A stretch of 21,083 nucleotides of DNA from a virus. The stretch is taken from IMG/VR virus record IMGVR_UViG_3300025141_000946, positions 1 through 21,083 of that record; one strand, written 5' to 3'. Below are positions 1 through 11,590 of this stretch, piece by piece. Made by a program: the position numbers and the translations under genes. Below the pieces are notes generated by a model that saw only the letters and a program-made list of their open reading frames with translations, made no database searches and had not been told where the DNA came from. The first letter of the stretch is position 1, and every line of letters begins with the position of its first letter.

Positions 1-941
1 TAGTTGAGAGCATGATGCTCGTCTACATTCTCTATTATTCTACCATAATCTGTCTTAATTTTACAGCCATCCCAGTATTTATTTCGCACTAAATCCTTGT
101 TGTAGAGGTGCTCTAAGTCCTTGTTTTTATTGCTAGAATACAACCAAGCGAAGGTTTTCACTTTGGCTTCTTCGCGGCTGAGTTCACCATCGAAAACGTT
201 CTTGACATTCCAATTATGGATGTCGTTCTTAGGTTGCTCAGCACCCGTTAGTGCCAGGAGCACCCTCAACTCTGCCGCGTTGAAATCAAGTTCAATAAGG
301 TAGTCGTTCTTTGGCTCAATGCAAGCCCTAAACTCTTTGTTCATCGTGAGAATCGGGAGGGTGTTTGGATTTGTCGATAGGCGACCGGTAATTGTCCCCC
401 ATGGGTTATAGTCAAAGACGTTCTTGACGGTTTGCAATGTGCGGTGAAAGTTCTGACCGCGGACACTACTCAAAAGATGCTTAATTGGACCAACGTCGAT
501 GCTAACGGTCTGTGAACGGATGCTAGAGAGCATTTCCACGAGGTTGTACATAAACTCATAGTTCTCTGGTCTGGGGTGGGTCTCTAAAACGTGTTTGGTG
601 ATCTTATTCTTGGCCGCAAGATACTCATAAAGGAAGTATTCGGGCAATACATCATAAAAACAATTATCCGCCAACGAAAGGTGTGCCGTGTTAAAGGACT
701 TGAGACACGCTCTAAGCGTTTTCTTGATGCGGGACCACTCCTCCTTCATCTCCTCCGGGCAAACGTCTGTGAGAGCCGCTCCGTGGCTGTAAATGCGTCC
801 TAACTCGTAATGACTTCCCGGGAGATGCGAGGAATATTCCCAAGTGCTCCCCTCCGAAGGAAGAATTGGGGTTGGGTTAATAATGTTGGCGGAATAAAAT
901 CCGATGCAATCTCTCTTGTTGTCTAAAAGCTGGAATAACAA
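1..941 (-). CDS. Family A (Pol I-like) DNA polymerase, 3' part cut off by window edge
   Basis: Replicative-type DNA polymerase; 313 codons are visible and the frame runs off the window before motif C. Seen directly: TGRLS at residues 185-189; motif A DFNAAELRVLLALTG from D219 (equivalent to catalytic Asp705 of E. coli Pol I) with E224 at the steric-gate spacing; DIHN shortly after; and motif B REEAKVKTFAWLYSS with R256, K260, F264 and Y268 at the same spacing as R754, K758, F762 and Y766 of Pol I. The Gly that usually follows the motif B Tyr is Ser. Only about 180 residues precede the palm, and I see no DxE exonuclease motif, so 3'-5' proofreading is probably encoded elsewhere. No ATG lies near the 5' end; the best start is TTG at 941-939, behind AGGAG that overlaps the stop codon of the upstream structural gene. 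The family call is very secure; the start is likely. Confidence 0.93.
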   Translation of the reverse strand, partial: MLFQLLDNKRDCIGFYSANIINPTPILPSEGSTWEYSSHLPGSHYELGRIYSHGAALTDVCPEEMKEEWSRIKKTLRACLKSFNTAHLSLADNCFYDVLPEYFLYEYLAAKNKITKHVLETHPRPENYEFMYNLVEMLSSIRSQTVSIDVGPIKHLLSSVRGQNFHRTLQTVKNVFDYNPWGTITGRLSTNPNTLPILTMNKEFRACIEPKNDYLIELDFNAAELRVLLALTGAEQPKNDIHNWNVKNVFDGELSREEAKVKTFAWLYSSNKNKDLEHLYNKDLVRNKYWDGCKIKTDYGRIIENVDEHHALN

Positions 942-7322: not shown

Positions 7323-9578
7323 TTAAGCCAGACTATTCTTATAGTAGGGGCTGGGACCTCCGCCATTCTGAAGTCCGTTTTGTGTCACTTGTGTCGCGAA
7401 TTGAGTTCCGGCAGATAATTCAACGTTTACATTCTTCCCAGCTTTGGTTGCTTCGAGCAACTCAGCTAAAAGTTGATTAGTCTCGGCGTTATTTGCCCCA
7501 CCTGAGGCATCACCTCGTGCCCGGGAAGGGATTGAGGCTCCTAACTGTGGGGACCTAGGGGACGAGGTGAAGGCTTCTAACTGTGGGGACCTAGGAGACG
7601 AGGTGAAGTCTCCAAAGAGGGGACCTCCGGGTTCGGCTGCAACAATAAAATCTTGTTCGCTAGGCTCTATCACCTGCCCACTAGAGGTGATTATAACGTC
7701 ATTAACTTTTTTAGTCCCGGCGCTAGCGAGGCCAAAAGTTGCAGCGCCGAGGGTGCCGGCAATGCCTGCCCACATCGCGATGCTAGCGCCGCCCGTAAAC
7801 GGAGCAGCAATCATAGCCGCTACGCCTGCCGCCATGAGCCCAGCAGTGGCAAAATGAGGAAGCATATTGATTGCTTTCCCGAGCCAACCGGCAAAGGTAG
7901 CAAATACTTTAATCATCGGTACCAGAGTCTGTTCAACAAACGGACGAAGATCTTTGGCAAGTACAGCGAAAGCGGATTTTAATTGATCCACCATCTTTTG
8001 GGTAGAACGTGCCTGCTCTTCTACTTCCTTTTGAGTCTGTGCCTGCAACTCATATTCAGCTGTCGACATCTTCATGATTCTGGATGCCTCGTCGACACTC
8101 ATACCAAGTGCAGAGGCAATTGCTTGTTTTTCAAATCGATTCATTGCATCAAATTGCATGCCTGAGGCGTCGACAGTATCGCGGATCATCTGCAGCCGTT
8201 CACCTTCCTTGGCGTTCAGCATGTCAATTGAGTTGAGGTATGGACCACCCAAGATTGCATTCAACTTGCCAACAGAGGTTGCGGCACCCTCGAATGTATC
8301 GAATTGTTTGGTTATTGACATAAGCTTGCCGACGGCAATACCTGTTGCTTTTGCTTGCTTGGCTAAGTCTTCAAAGACATCTATTGCCTGCTCGCCGTAC
8401 TTACTGAGTTCTGCAAAGGCGCCTTCAAAGTCGGAGGCCATCTTGTCCATGGGAACTTCGAGAGAGGCTGCGGCACCACCAATCCGCAACATCGTGGCTT
8501 GAATAGATCTCGGTCCTTGCCCAAGAGAACGGGATAGTTGATCAAAGATCTTCCCAGCAGTACCGGCGGAAACACCTAGCTTCTCGTACAGGACTGCTGT
8601 GTCGACCAGCATCTGTCGGCTGGCGCTGCTTAGCTCTGTAAACTGAGAGAAACTGGAATAGAGAGCCTGGAAAGCTTTGCCGGCGTCGGCGGCTGATACC
8701 CCGGCGAGGAAATTACGACGTTCAGTCTGAGCAATCTCTAGATTATACTTTGTGCTGGCTCCTGTTGCTTTGCGGAAAGAAGAGATGGCTTCATCTTGTG
8801 CGGTGATGAGCTTCATTGTGCCACCAATTGCCAACTCGGCGACCTTTAAGAAACCAGCGCGCCCGAGAGATTTAGAAACCTTCCCCATTGCTCTTGATAA
8901 GCCGCCGGGACCTGTGGCTGTTCCCTTCATCGTGAGGAATTGCTTTTTCAAATTCATCACGGTTTCTATCGCGCTGCCGTTCTTCAGACCCAAGCCGAAC
9001 GTCGTTTGTCCGAGGCGCTCAAGCTGTTCAGTCAGTCCTTTTTCACCCTCGAGGGCTTTGGTATTTAGTTTGAATTGGTGTTCTGCTTCAATCAACTTTT
9101 TGCGAAGGTGCTCGGTGCCATCGGCGACTTCTTTGTCTGTCGCACCTTGTTCGCGCAGCGTGTGGGTCAGTTGTGCCAGCTCAAGCTCCGCATGCTTGAC
9201 AATGATTTGTTGTTCCTTAAGTTCTTTGGCAAATGCTTTTGATGTACTTTCAGTTAAATCGTTATAGATTACATCAATCTCTTTAAGTTCCTGCTTAAGG
9301 AAGTCCATAGCCTTTTTCTGTTCGTCCAAAGCGTCAGTGGCGATACGCGCTGAATTGGCATAGGCATCCTGGCGAAGCTTCTGGTTCTCAAGCTCCGTGC
9401 CCAAATCCGACGCAGCTTTGGTGGTTTGCTCCAAAGCCTCTTTTTCTTCGCCGGAGGATTGCGCCGTACCGGTTGAGGGTTTTCCGGATTCCTTATCCCC
9501 TGACTTTTTACCTCCAGGAGATTGGGCGCGCTGTAATTCTTCTAAAATTGCTTGTAGGAGTTGTACCTCGGACGCCAT
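7323..9578 (-). CDS. Tail tape measure protein (751 aa)
   Basis: Sets tail length and is carried inside the tail tube (functional analogue of T4 gp29). The N-terminal third (about residues 40-190) is heptad-rich and strongly predicted coiled coil by eye. A central Ala/Ser/Lys-rich helical region follows, and a hydrophobic Gly/Ala-rich segment, from GLMAAGVAAMIAAPFTGGAS to GTLGAATFGLASAG near residues 580-630, is the usual membrane-seeking part. Near residues 655-679 a 12-residue unit (FTSSPRSPQL plus two) is directly repeated. At 1.5 angstrom per helical residue, 751 residues would span about 110 nm, slightly longer than expected for T4 gp29 (590 residues). Start ATG follows GGGGGG at the end of the preceding gene. 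Position after tube and chaperone-like genes fits. Confidence 0.9.
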   Translation of the reverse strand: MASEVQLLQAILEELQRAQSPGGKKSGDKESGKPSTGTAQSSGEEKEALEQTTKAASDLGTELENQKLRQDAYANSARIATDALDEQKKAMDFLKQELKEIDVIYNDLTESTSKAFAKELKEQQIIVKHAELELAQLTHTLREQGATDKEVADGTEHLRKKLIEAEHQFKLNTKALEGEKGLTEQLERLGQTTFGLGLKNGSAIETVMNLKKQFLTMKGTATGPGGLSRAMGKVSKSLGRAGFLKVAELAIGGTMKLITAQDEAISSFRKATGASTKYNLEIAQTERRNFLAGVSAADAGKAFQALYSSFSQFTELSSASRQMLVDTAVLYEKLGVSAGTAGKIFDQLSRSLGQGPRSIQATMLRIGGAAASLEVPMDKMASDFEGAFAELSKYGEQAIDVFEDLAKQAKATGIAVGKLMSITKQFDTFEGAATSVGKLNAILGGPYLNSIDMLNAKEGERLQMIRDTVDASGMQFDAMNRFEKQAIASALGMSVDEASRIMKMSTAEYELQAQTQKEVEEQARSTQKMVDQLKSAFAVLAKDLRPFVEQTLVPMIKVFATFAGWLGKAINMLPHFATAGLMAAGVAAMIAAPFTGGASIAMWAGIAGTLGAATFGLASAGTKKVNDVIITSSGQVIEPSEQDFIVAAEPGGPLFGDFTSSPRSPQLEAFTSSPRSPQLGASIPSRARGDASGGANNAETNQLLAELLEATKAGKNVNVELSAGTQFATQVTQNGLQNGGGPSPYYKNSLA
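7541..7612. repeat. 36-bp tandem duplication inside the tape measure gene
   Basis: Two direct copies at 7541-7576 and 7577-7612. The first 32 bases differ only at one position (ggg versus gga after ggacctag) and the last four diverge. Being a multiple of three, the repeat adds a 12-residue Ser/Pro/Arg-rich unit without breaking the frame. Confidence 0.9.
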
Positions 9579-9590
9579 TTATAAACCCCC

Positions 9591-9920
9591 CTAGTTGGCA
9601 AATGGCCAGCGGATGCCGGTTTCGAATTCGAATTTTCTTACGGCATCATCGAGCTGGTATTTTGAGTTTAGTGTCTGTGCATCATTGAGACCATGCTTTA
9701 CAAAAGAGTCCATATAACGCTTTTCACGTTGGAGGGCGGTAAAAAAAGAAGTTATTTGTGAAGGATTGCCGCCCATTGAAACGTTTAAGCTTGGGGCGCG
9801 CCCGCTATACAAACTTTGCATTAAAAAATATACATCATTTGAAAAATCGCTATAAACGTCCTCTGTGAGAATCGCATTATTCTTCATATTCAAGTTCAGA
9901 TGAATCTTCTTTTTTGTCAT
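9591..9920 (-). CDS. Small conserved-looking tail-module protein, unknown function (109 aa)
   Basis: I do not recognise this family. It is a 109-residue soluble protein with a basic start (MTKKKIHLNLNMKNN), a helical centre and a distinctive end, FEFETGIRWPFAN. It starts with ATG behind the GAGGG of AATGAGGGCTCATAA and ends 12 bases before the tape measure start. It is the first gene after one copy of the ACTATTTA intergenic motif, so it may lead a transcript carrying tape measure and baseplate genes. Position between a chaperone-like gene and the tape measure suggests a role in tape measure handling or hub assembly (inference only). A second in-frame ATG lies 11 codons in. Confidence 0.7.
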   Translation of the reverse strand: MTKKKIHLNLNMKNNAILTEDVYSDFSNDVYFLMQSLYSGRAPSLNVSMGGNPSQITSFFTALQREKRYMDSFVKHGLNDAQTLNSKYQLDDAVRKFEFETGIRWPFAN

Positions 9921-9969: not shown

Positions 9970-10159
9970 TCAACCCTTCATCGCTTCTTCTAATTGTTTA
10001 TTTTCTTCTTCGTACTCTTTAATTAGTCTTTCTACAAACCAATGTCGCAGCTGAATAGGCAAGTTATATGCCTCGAAAAATGACCAGCCGCCATGATGCT
10101 TGAGAATAAAGAGTTCTTCGTATACCGAAGCTTGGTAACTAGTCGCTAGGCCAAAAAAA
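9970..10159 (-). CDS. Start-less downstream frame: tail-assembly chaperone extension made by frameshifting
   Basis: After the T7 run in the gp26-like gene, another frame stays open for 60 codons to a TGA at 9972-9970. It reads GLATSYQASVYEEL, then HHGGWSFFEAYNLPIQLRHW, and ends in a charged helix KEYEEENKQLEEAMKG. The 'NLPIxLRxWFVERL' element and acidic helix look like small hub/tail-assembly proteins that follow gp26 in T4-like phages (recognition from memory). Upstream, this frame is closed by TAA at a GGTAATG sequence, and no ATG, GTG or TTG occurs before the conserved part (the first TTG is inside the NLP element). Expression therefore needs a shift to the +1 frame, by +1 or -2 slippage. 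The alternative is a sequencing or assembly indel in the T run. Confidence 0.65.
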
Positions 10160-10996
10160 GTCTGCCGTGAGCGGCATTACCACCTTCCCGGCGTAGGAGC
10201 AGCGATCGCAGGTAAACTCGTGATTGAGGTCGACGTCGGGCTTGATCTTCTCGTAAATGCGACGTAGGAAACGTGAATCCATTGATGGCATAAGATCTAC
10301 AAACTGTGCCACCATGCCAGGATCTACTACACCATTCACTGAAACAATGACAGCTTTCAGTAGATCGGTGCTGCGACTATCAGGAAGATTCATTTTCTTC
10401 TTTCTTTCTGCAGCGGCAGACAATTGCTTCTCGGTGCCAGCAGTTAAAAGTCGCACTTCTAAGACTACGGCAGTCGTGGGAAGTTTAAATTTGAATGTGC
10501 CCCCGGGAGTTACCTCGATGTCTTCGGGGATTGAGTCTGCACAATGGAGGCTTAACGCATGCAGATCAAATGTTGTGTTGTTTACCTCATTGCAGTTGGG
10601 GCAAGTCAAACTCGTAGCATAATCAGCACCAAACCCTGTGATGCGAGCGCCGATGACGAGCGCGTTTTTATCTCCAATTAAGAAGTCATCCAGATTTAAT
10701 CCCTGATCAACCAAGAGCGCCTGGAGCATTCTATCTAAGGCGATGCCCTTTTTCAGCAATGCTTCACTTGTTAAAATGTCTTCTTCTTTTGCCGTCATGT
10801 GACGGAGTTCCACAGACTCTACACCTGCCAGGGGACTGTCTTCTGTATAAAATCTACCTTTACTGGGGAGATCAACAAATTCTGTTGGTGTTACAAATGA
10901 AAAAATATCTCCACCCGTAGTCATGGTGGGCGGTGGGGGGCTGTTATCCTCGGGGCGTGGTGGTGTAAGTCGCTCTGAATTCTTTTTGCGAGCCAT
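10139..10996 (-). CDS. 26: gp26-like baseplate hub/tail-assembly protein with zinc ribbon
   Basis: 285 residues. A Pro-rich N-terminus precedes FVDLPSKGRFY (residues 40-50) and ELRHMTAKEEDILTSEALLK (63-82), a pattern I associate with the T4 gp26 baseplate family. Two CxxC pairs, C132/C135 (CPNC) and C263/C266 (CDRC), are placed to form a split zinc ribbon. The C-terminal part has VDLMPSMDSRFLRRIYEKI. It is longer than T4 gp26 (208 residues). The gene sits between tail tube and tape measure, the slot where many long-tailed phages encode the frameshifting G/GT tail-assembly chaperones. It ends at TAG shortly after a T7 run that leads into a second open frame. Ribosome binding site is AAGAAGGT, in an 18-base gap after the tube gene. 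Confidence 0.78.
   Translation of the reverse strand: MARKKNSERLTPPRPEDNSPPPPTMTTGGDIFSFVTPTEFVDLPSKGRFYTEDSPLAGVESVELRHMTAKEEDILTSEALLKKGIALDRMLQALLVDQGLNLDDFLIGDKNALVIGARITGFGADYATSLTCPNCNEVNNTTFDLHALSLHCADSIPEDIEVTPGGTFKFKLPTTAVVLEVRLLTAGTEKQLSAAAERKKKMNLPDSRSTDLLKAVIVSVNGVVDPGMVAQFVDLMPSMDSRFLRRIYEKIKPDVDLNHEFTCDRCSYAGKVVMPLTADFFWPSD
10153..10159 (-). other. Candidate programmed frameshift site (T7 run)
   Basis: On the coding strand the zero frame reads GAC TTT TTT TGG CCT. With TTT in the P site, a +1 slip (to TTT GGC) or a -2 slip (TTT re-pairing two bases back) both keep perfect pairing and enter the 60-codon downstream frame. The slip must occur between the upstream TAA of the new frame and the downstream TAG of the old one, a window containing the T7 run. 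A 5-bp hairpin TGCCG-CTCA-CGGCA (10163-10176) ends three bases upstream, and CTAG-CGA-CTAG follows downstream. The direction of shift is not decided by sequence alone. Confidence 0.6.
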
Positions 10997-11014: not shown

Positions 11015-11590
11015 TCACGGATCGGCAGAAAATGAAATCGCAGGTCCGGGTGTGTATATGGCATAATCATACCGCATTGTGACCGAAACATTAAGTAATT
11101 CTGTATCATTGTCGTAGTTTAAATCACCAAAAGTTGCATTAGTTATAAATGCATTAATCAATTGCCATTCACCAACATTGCCACCTTCGCCATTGAGTTC
11201 CTGAATGTTCACGAGACCAAGAGCGGTGAGTGCGTCTTTCTTATTAACTGTGCCGGGTGCCTGATTACTGTTAATGACGTCTTCCTGGCGATCCGGTCGC
11301 AGGTAGCCCATGTCAGTAAGGGCGTTCATAAGGAGAGCATTGCCGTCAGGGTTGATGGCGTTAACGATCACAGCGTTGACGGTTTGCCATTCAACAGAGC
11401 CGGGATAGTAATAGGTATTTCCCAAAAACTTATGGGGAGCTTCGCCCACCGTATAAGCTGGCTTCGTGACCGACTTGGCAAGATATTTAGCGTACGTGAA
11501 CTCGCTGCTGGGACTTACAAGCCCCGGGATGTCTAAGATAAATCTATGTGCGCGTTTTGGTTCTGATAAAGCGCTTGTCCAGAATGGCAT
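11015..11590 (-). CDS. 19: Tail tube protein (gp19-like)
   Basis: 191 residues; subunit of the inner tail tube. It begins FWTSALSEPKRAHRFILDIP and continues YLAKSVTKPAYTVGEAPHKF (about 31-50), FLGNTYYYPGSVEW, then NALTDMGYLRP, the usual layout of T4 gp19-type tube proteins (163 residues in T4). The end VTMRYDYAIY fits the last barrel strand. It follows the sheath gene, as gene 19 follows gene 18 in T4. Start ATG has AAGGAG nine bases upstream. It is separated from the sheath gene by a hairpin and an ACTATTTA motif and so probably has its own transcript start, continuing into the gp26-like gene. Confidence 0.88.
   Translation of the reverse strand: MPFWTSALSEPKRAHRFILDIPGLVSPSSEFTYAKYLAKSVTKPAYTVGEAPHKFLGNTYYYPGSVEWQTVNAVIVNAINPDGNALLMNALTDMGYLRPDRQEDVINSNQAPGTVNKKDALTALGLVNIQELNGEGGNVGEWQLINAFITNATFGDLNYDNDTELLNVSVTMRYDYAIYTPGPAISFSADP

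Follow-up and report, generated by a model that had tools for sequence, protein, structure and literature searches.

A start-less +1 frame at the end of a gp26-like gene

How is a conserved reading frame expressed when it trails a gp26-like gene and has no start codon of its own? Xu et al. reportedly described, in 2004, a conserved frameshift in the tail genes of long-tailed phages. We analyzed one 21-kb virus contig, which constitutes its entire record, hereafter the window (the whole stretch of DNA, 21,083 nucleotides), for which a sequence-only reading had proposed a programmed "+1/−2" slip yielding a G/GT-like pair of tail assembly chaperones. Our analysis indicates that positions 9970–10996 on the minus strand are very probably the gene of a G/GT-type chaperone of a marine T4-superfamily phage, made via a +1 slip. 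The features on which this reading is based are listed below.

10139–10996, minus strand: gp26-like gene, 285 aa, the short product (TAC-N, "G"); PF12322, phrog_150
10153–10159, minus strand: run of seven Ts (T7); putative slip codon TTT at 10154–10156, followed by the T of TGG; from the sequence
10139–10141, minus strand: zero-frame stop TAG, 12 nt past the slip codon and 9 nt past TTT TTT TGG; from the sequence
9970–10155, minus strand: +1-frame extension (T part), 61 aa counted from the slip, ending at TGA 9970–9972; from conservation and an AF2 three-helix model
10163–10176, minus strand: 5-bp hairpin TGCCG-CTCA-CGGCA, three bases upstream of the T run; from the sequence
11015–11590, minus strand: tail tube gene, directly upstream of the gp26-like gene; phrog_4542 tail tube, E = 5.1e-17
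7323–9578, minus strand: tape measure gene, downstream; phrog_167 tail length tape measure, E = 5.1e-9
9591–9920, minus strand: ORF of 109 aa that separates the T part from the tape measure gene; no family match

The last codons of the gp26-like gene, on the minus strand, are GAC TTT TTT TGG CCT AGC GAC TAG. In the +1 frame, 68 codons (61 from the slip) lie open between a TAA at 10177–10179 on the upstream side and the TGA at 9970–9972, the first open position being 10176. Its first ATG, GTG or TTG is a TTG at the 39th codon, within the conserved part (NLPIQ). Direct reading of the sequence thereby confirmed the proposed gene end and the start-less +1 frame closed by TAA. A −1 slippery heptamer was rejected as the type of site in the window, given that the −1 (+2) frame is open only from 4 nt before the gp26 stop, a point that lies past the slip.

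The encoded protein belongs to the T4 gp26 family: it matched PF12322 (T4_baseplate) with E = 2.2e-11 and 44.3 bits, above the curated cut-off of 24.5, residues 43–282 aligning with positions 9–219 of the 219-position profile, and it matched phrog_150 (baseplate hub) with E = 2.6e-12. The gene sits between the tail tube and tape measure genes, the position of G/GT-type chaperone genes. The 109-aa ORF at 9591–9920 matched 0 families in Pfam or PHROGs at E up to 1.

Sequence, conservation, gene order and predicted folds are what the analysis shows directly; the slippage itself, its rate and the binding roles of the products are inferred. Most ribosomes would stop at the TAG at 10139–10141, releasing the 285-aa gp26-like protein. 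A minority would slip one base forward with tRNA-Phe on the second TTT of TTT TTT TGG and UGG waiting in the A site, the P-site tRNA moving from TTT 10154–10156 to TTT 10153–10155. Reading would then continue with GGC CTA and so on, giving a 341-aa fusion whose last 61 residues would fold into a small helical domain. If lambda is a guide, the segment shared by both products would bind the tape measure protein, and recruitment of tube subunits would fall to the rare extension.

Conservation of the slip site and the +1 frame

We assembled two sets of relatives. Clade A comprises the best 80 of 581 stretches from an IMG/VR scan with the window's gp26 (46–99% identity) plus the window, that is, 81 loci; a gp26 stop was readable in 79, and 56 distinct junctions were followed by 150 nt or more. 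For clade B, we scanned with the Mel-JY01 gp26 (from a Microcystis phage), retained the best 80 of at least 600 stretches and added Mel-JY01 itself, immuto and LR756508; of these 83 loci, 81 had a stop, and the distinct junctions numbered 66. Codon counts use another duplicate removal, which leaves 59 (clade A) and 68 (clade B) distinct rows; because the rows are related, these counts are not independent. The script that located slip sites required YTT_T (TTT or CTT with a T next) preceded by a Phe or Leu codon. This pattern was present in 159 of the 160 loci with a readable stop across clades A and B (127 distinct rows). The sole miss, L082, has TTT CTA (TTT_C) and was dropped from the rows.

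The +1 frame was open across the gp26 stop in all 56 distinct clade A junctions, versus 3/56 for the other alternative frame, and in all 66 of clade B, where the +2 frame was also open in 6. The slip codon was TTT in 59/59 clade A and 67/68 clade B rows; elsewhere in clade A gp26, Phe is encoded by TTT 411 times and by TTC 145 times (of 556). The A-site codon was UGG in 59/59 and 66/68 rows, respectively. The codon after TGG was CCT in every clade A row, compared with 223 of 949 Pro codons elsewhere in gp26. Because the Leu codon of the +1 frame accounts for this CCT, both frames look constrained from the slip onward. Conservation of the +1 frame in clade A likewise starts at the slip, with F-G-L in 59/59 rows. 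Further along, a +1-frame Pro at codon +32 is invariant in clade A and is encoded by CCT (22), CCC (15), CCG (12) or CCA (10). These results indicate that the +1 frame is conserved at the protein level, with third positions free.

The site was TTTTTTTGGCCT in 56 clade A rows and TTCTTTTGGCCT in 3; clade B had TTTTTTTGGCCT in 62, CTTTTTTGGCCT in 3, TTTTTTTACCCT in 2 and TTTCTTTGGCCT in 1. A homopolymer run in a metagenome contig might suggest a sequencing or assembly error, or a decayed gene, an explanation that we practically discount: the same junction occurs in 56/56 distinct clade A sequences and in isolate phage genomes, with both frames conserved. The contig nearest to the window (L002, gp26 99% identical) has the same T7 run and a different gp26 stop codon.

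The T part might alternatively be a separate gene, translated from a non-standard start codon or by stop-start reinitiation. In clade A, ATG, GTG and TTG were absent from codon −3 to +9 in 59/59 rows, and the +1 frame had a stop five codons before the slip (codon −5) in 50/59; in the remaining nine rows, the frame was open further upstream, some with an ATG there (e.g., L057). In clade B, 23/68 rows had an ATG four codons before the slip (codon −4), and the case against an independent start is therefore weaker in that clade. An own start may apply in these particular rows of both clades. The expected phase and lack of a start codon hold together in clade A, and in clade B the phase holds. Near-start codons were not conserved: CTG stood at the Leu codon after the slip in 10/59 clade A and 32/68 clade B rows. 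Relatives with an ATG of their own in the second part do exist, next to the gp26 stop in LR756511, L276 and L281, and also in KVP40 and most cyanophage-type rows. The sequence-only reading had regarded separate genes with a proper start as evidence against a frameshift; LR756511, L276, L281 and T4 are organized in this manner, and the seven reference phages of the −1 type (see below) depart from the +1 layout too, but all of them lie on branches other than the window's. A separate gene would also leave the YTT_T site unexplained, as well as the onset of +1-frame conservation at the slip, and the first standard start in the window falls inside the conserved part. We therefore consider a separate gene improbable. 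What the window and clade A display, namely a second ORF in another frame, without a start, and with a conserved slippery site in the overlap, is the arrangement of G/GT genes.

Direction of the slip

A −2 ribosomal slip, as in phage Mu, would reach the same frame as a +1 slip, and the T7 run of the window allows it. The variants at the site bear on this point. T7 is interrupted in TTC TTT TGG (3/59 clade A rows), CTT TTT TGG (3/68 clade B) and TTT CTT TGG (1/68 clade B), and each variant retains YTT_T. TTC TTT TGG, which also occurs in 14 of the 17 readable contigs of a third group (see below), offers no good −2 partner but allows a +1 move to TTT or TTC. Likewise, TTT CTT TGG of immuto, TTT CTA of LR756508 and TTC TTT CGT of GXN1 re-pair poorly after −2 and allow a +1 move. 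A −2 slip is thus very improbable, and of the two directions first proposed the relatives favor +1.

Slippage of the transcript on the T7 run was weighed in the same way. T7 is present in 56/59 clade A and 64/68 clade B rows (counting TTTTTTTGG and TTTTTTTAC), yet relatives with runs of only T4 (TTCTTTTGG) or T3 (TTTCTTTGG, TTCTTTCGT) keep the layout, which renders transcriptional slippage extremely improbable. Since the T7-breaking variants keep YTT_T, they favor the +1 slip over −2 slippage, transcript slippage and sequencing error alike. The anticipated conservation of the T run accordingly does not apply to T7 as such; what is kept is YTT_T or TTT_C. Re-pairing of the YTT tRNA one base on, with TTT or TTC, is possible in every +1 variant except LIS04 (TTT TTT AGT), where the earlier TTT can re-pair after +1. 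A P-site codon able to re-pair after +1 was found throughout clades A and B, in rows that the script had preselected for this pattern. Taken together with gene position, this conservation strongly supports the idea, put forward in the sequence-only reading, that ribosomes are programmed to enter the +1 frame where gp26 ends.

Layouts in distant relatives

We then compared the layouts of 18 reference phage regions by reading. Nine of them have the +1 layout:

LR756508: TTT CTA
Microcystis phage Mel-JY01: TTT TTT TGG
Flavobacterium phage immuto: TTT CTT TGG
Streptococcus phage GXN1: TTC TTT CGT
Bacillus phage SP-15: TTT TTT CAC
LIS04: TTT TTT AGT
RM378: TTT TTT TGG, extension weakly similar
BRock: TTT CGC
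LuckySocke: TTT CAG

TTT_C occurs in four of SP-15, LIS04, BRock, LuckySocke and GXN1. Seven of the 18 regions (KVP40, P-SSM2, Bellamy, Atu_ph07, XacN1, RAS14 and PA5oct) have a −1 layout with T_TTT_TTC or T_TTT_TTT, and six of these also have a start codon in the second part, PA5oct being the exception. LR756511 encodes the second part separately, from an ATG of its own. T4 gp26 lacks such an extension, genes 26 and 25 overlap, and gp51 is a separate gene.

A third IMG/VR group was collected with the gp26 of LR756508 as query (20 loci, 18 tested; L283 ends too early, leaving 17 readable). Fourteen of the 17 (10 distinct) have TTC TTT TGG CCT and an open +1 frame, and L282 carries TTTTTTTGG. 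In L276 and L281, the second part lies in the +2 frame and has its own ATG; the slip site is gone from L276, and in L281 CTT_T remains with the +1 frame closed. These two contigs are a natural control: where no usable shift exists, a start codon is present. A profile search of genome contigs yielded one contig, L263 (a bacterial MAG), with TTT TTT CGT and an open +1 frame.

Mapped onto a gp26 tree of 30 rows, the +1 and −1 labels each require two changes, and the full set of labels requires four. Because several rows are long-branched or open, we conclude from the tree only that the labels cluster and that −1 occupies two or more distinct branches, one beside T4 and one among the +1 lineages; it does not tell which way the changes went.

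A candidate −1 signal in cyanophage-type junctions

The cyanophage-type set was built from a scan with P-SSM2 gp26, taking the best 80 of at least 570 relatives (600 stretches) together with P-SSM2 and Bellamy; it contains 82 loci (L091, L092, L100–L179) with 68 distinct junctions. The −1 frame was open in 68/68 distinct junctions, and a script found TTTTTTC just before the gp26 stop without exception among the 82 loci. Upstream, an 8-base stretch able to pair with the anti-Shine-Dalgarno sequence, mostly GGAGGG (37/58), ends 7–9 nt before the site, with a mean energy of −8.69 versus −2.82 for controls (n = 58). The next 75 nt fold better than single-base shuffles (mean z = −2.66; n = 29, every second row). 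Cyanophage-type junctions thus carry a candidate −1 frameshift signal of classical build. An ATG lies just past the gp26 stop in most cyanophage-type rows, so that a separate start is possible there.

Two annotation details concern the −1-linked parts. P-SSM2 and Bellamy annotate them as separate gp26 and gp51. In Pseudomonas phage PA5oct (L099, 3804–4038), the −1-frame extension of gp26 contains no ATG, GTG or TTG, and no gene is annotated there on that strand.

Hairpin and other possible stimulators

The 5-bp hairpin of the sequence-only reading is present in the window, three bases before the T run. Four or five of its five pairs can form in 42/59 clade A rows versus 10/68 clade B rows, and it was rejected as a general stimulator owing to its absence from most of clade B. 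Clade A shows two-sided changes, the second pair being AT for GC in 4 rows and the innermost TA or TG for GC in 6, alongside many unpaired cells. The hairpin is probably a by-product of the MPLTA codons, although it may have a role specific to clade A.

No Shine-Dalgarno-like element was detected upstream of the site in clade A (mean −2.43 versus −3.03 kcal/mol for the control), and the element in clade B was weak (−4.67 versus −2.86 kcal/mol). Downstream of the site, no clear structure was found in every second row of either clade (mean z = 0.09 in A, n = 30; −0.72 in B, n = 34).

A broader scenario, to which we assign an even chance, is that frameshifting for two gp26-type chaperones extends across the T4 superfamily. 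It would be +1 (TTT_T or TTT_C, with no evident stimulator) in most deep lineages seen and −1 (T_TTT_TTC, with a Shine-Dalgarno-like element and downstream structure) in the cyanophage-type lineages. Within a single orthologous gene, the direction of the slip would have reversed at the same codons, and T4's separate, fused gp51 would be derived, replacing the frameshift.

Chaperone assignment of the products

A gp26 model from 58 sequences reached a mean pLDDT of 84.3. Its best PDB rows among 418 aligned chains were YqbN (3klu; Z = 6.2, rmsd 7.5, 91 aa) and the HK97 tail assembly chaperone gp13 (2ob9; Z = 5.6, rmsd 5.0, 86 aa), all under Z = 8, the tool's safe level; the next row had Z = 3.3. 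Foldseek alone placed HK97 gp13 second in its list (E = 2.6). YqbN is named as a tail assembly chaperone in an excerpt of PMC9603447.

The AF2 model of the T part is a three-helix unit with a mean pLDDT of 93.3. By hhalign, the T part matched the short gp51 of KVP40 with a probability of 91, cyanophage gp51 with 86 and T4 gp51 with 0.1; the apparent link to T4 gp51 thus runs through KVP40 and cyanophage gp51, and the direct profile match fails. Eight of 60 T-part members matched phrog_634, "baseplate hub assembly catalyst", at E ≤ 0.1 (best 0.0074). T4 gp51 itself reads as a gp26-like part followed by a C-terminal T-like part, the first of which rests on the gp26 tree and on the title of Vladimirov 2022.

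A sequence search of solved structures with the gp26 and T-part profiles returned nothing meaningful, and a fold search with the T part alone gave unrelated proteins (best Z = 3.6). Its position between tube and tape measure genes, the weak fold matches and the likeness of the T part to short gp51 make a G/GT-type tail assembly chaperone the best reading of the product. For the chaperone pair postulated from the sequence, conservation and gene position argue strongly and the folds weakly.

Separately, 40 of the 60 T-part members matched Pfam DUF6760 at E ≤ 0.1 (best 3.5e-5); the window itself scored 14.8 bits, under the cut-off of 27. These matches may tie the T domain to other tail-like systems, perhaps including contractile systems of bacteria. 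A search of 295 bacterial genomes from a single phylum gave no hits, its controls included, and carries no weight for or against such a tie.

Relation to known frameshifts

Frameshifting in chaperone genes is well documented. As excerpted, the Atkins review states that the shift is −1, −2 or +1 depending on the phage and names T4 as the exception to conserved G-T frameshifting ("except T4"; PMC5009743), and the PRFect paper reports both −1 and +1 shifts in SEA-PHAGES data, mostly in chaperone genes (PMC10885494). T4-like phages are described as having gp26/gp51 tail assembly chaperones, encoded in some of them by a short gene and a fused one, in work by Vladimirov, Gautam and Davidson (2022) as relayed by PMC10885494 and PMC12846349. 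The link between gp26/gp51 and G/GT chaperones, which the sequence-only reading had also drawn, was therefore already published. According to an excerpt of PMC12846349, Vladimirov 2022 also names poly-T signals for a −1 shift in the TAC-N genes of T4-like phages. We found no description of a +1 frameshift in gp26 in the literature searched, which consisted of open-licence papers. As far as searched, the deeply conserved +1 site in gp26 is new, chaperone frameshifting itself being known.

Lambda G/GT combines a −1 shift with gpG, whereas the window would combine a +1 shift at YTT_T with the gp26 family. T4 gp26/gp51 shares the gp26 family (PF12322) with the window, but T4 encodes the two proteins separately, without a frameshift, and the window would derive both from a single gene. 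The site of influenza PA-X presumably consists of a pyrimidine-UU codon in the P site followed by U or C. The window family resembles both PA-X and the CUU_U site of prfB in this respect, as illustrated by CTT_T in immuto and TTC TTT CGT in GXN1. The waiting codon of the window is UGG, not a stop, and the function differs. The CUU_U site is given as prfB-type in an excerpt of PMC10885494. The missing clear stimulator in the +1 clades recalls PA-X, for which stimulating signals are called not evident in the excerpted review (PMC5009743). The same source, in part, describes +1 frameshifts in structural genes of Listeria phage PSA, as proposed for the window; those shifts occur at a proline codon beside a pseudoknot or stop codon, in capsid and tail-shaft genes and not in a chaperone gene (PMC5009743). 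For Pseudomonas phage Adele, a myovirus, a TAC-N/TAC-NC pair was likewise deduced from a conserved open frame and a poly-T site, but the shift given in the excerpt is −1 at GTTTTT, unlike the +1 of the window (PMC12846349).

A conserved +1 site in many T4-superfamily relatives, isolates included, would narrow the T4 exception to one branch. Unannotated gp26 extensions would gain a function to test, and the orthologous gene would allow +1 and −1 frameshifting to be compared at the same place. Elsewhere in the window, a partial ORF at 3–941 (minus strand) that, judging from its motifs, may encode a family A DNA polymerase adjoins the tail genes.
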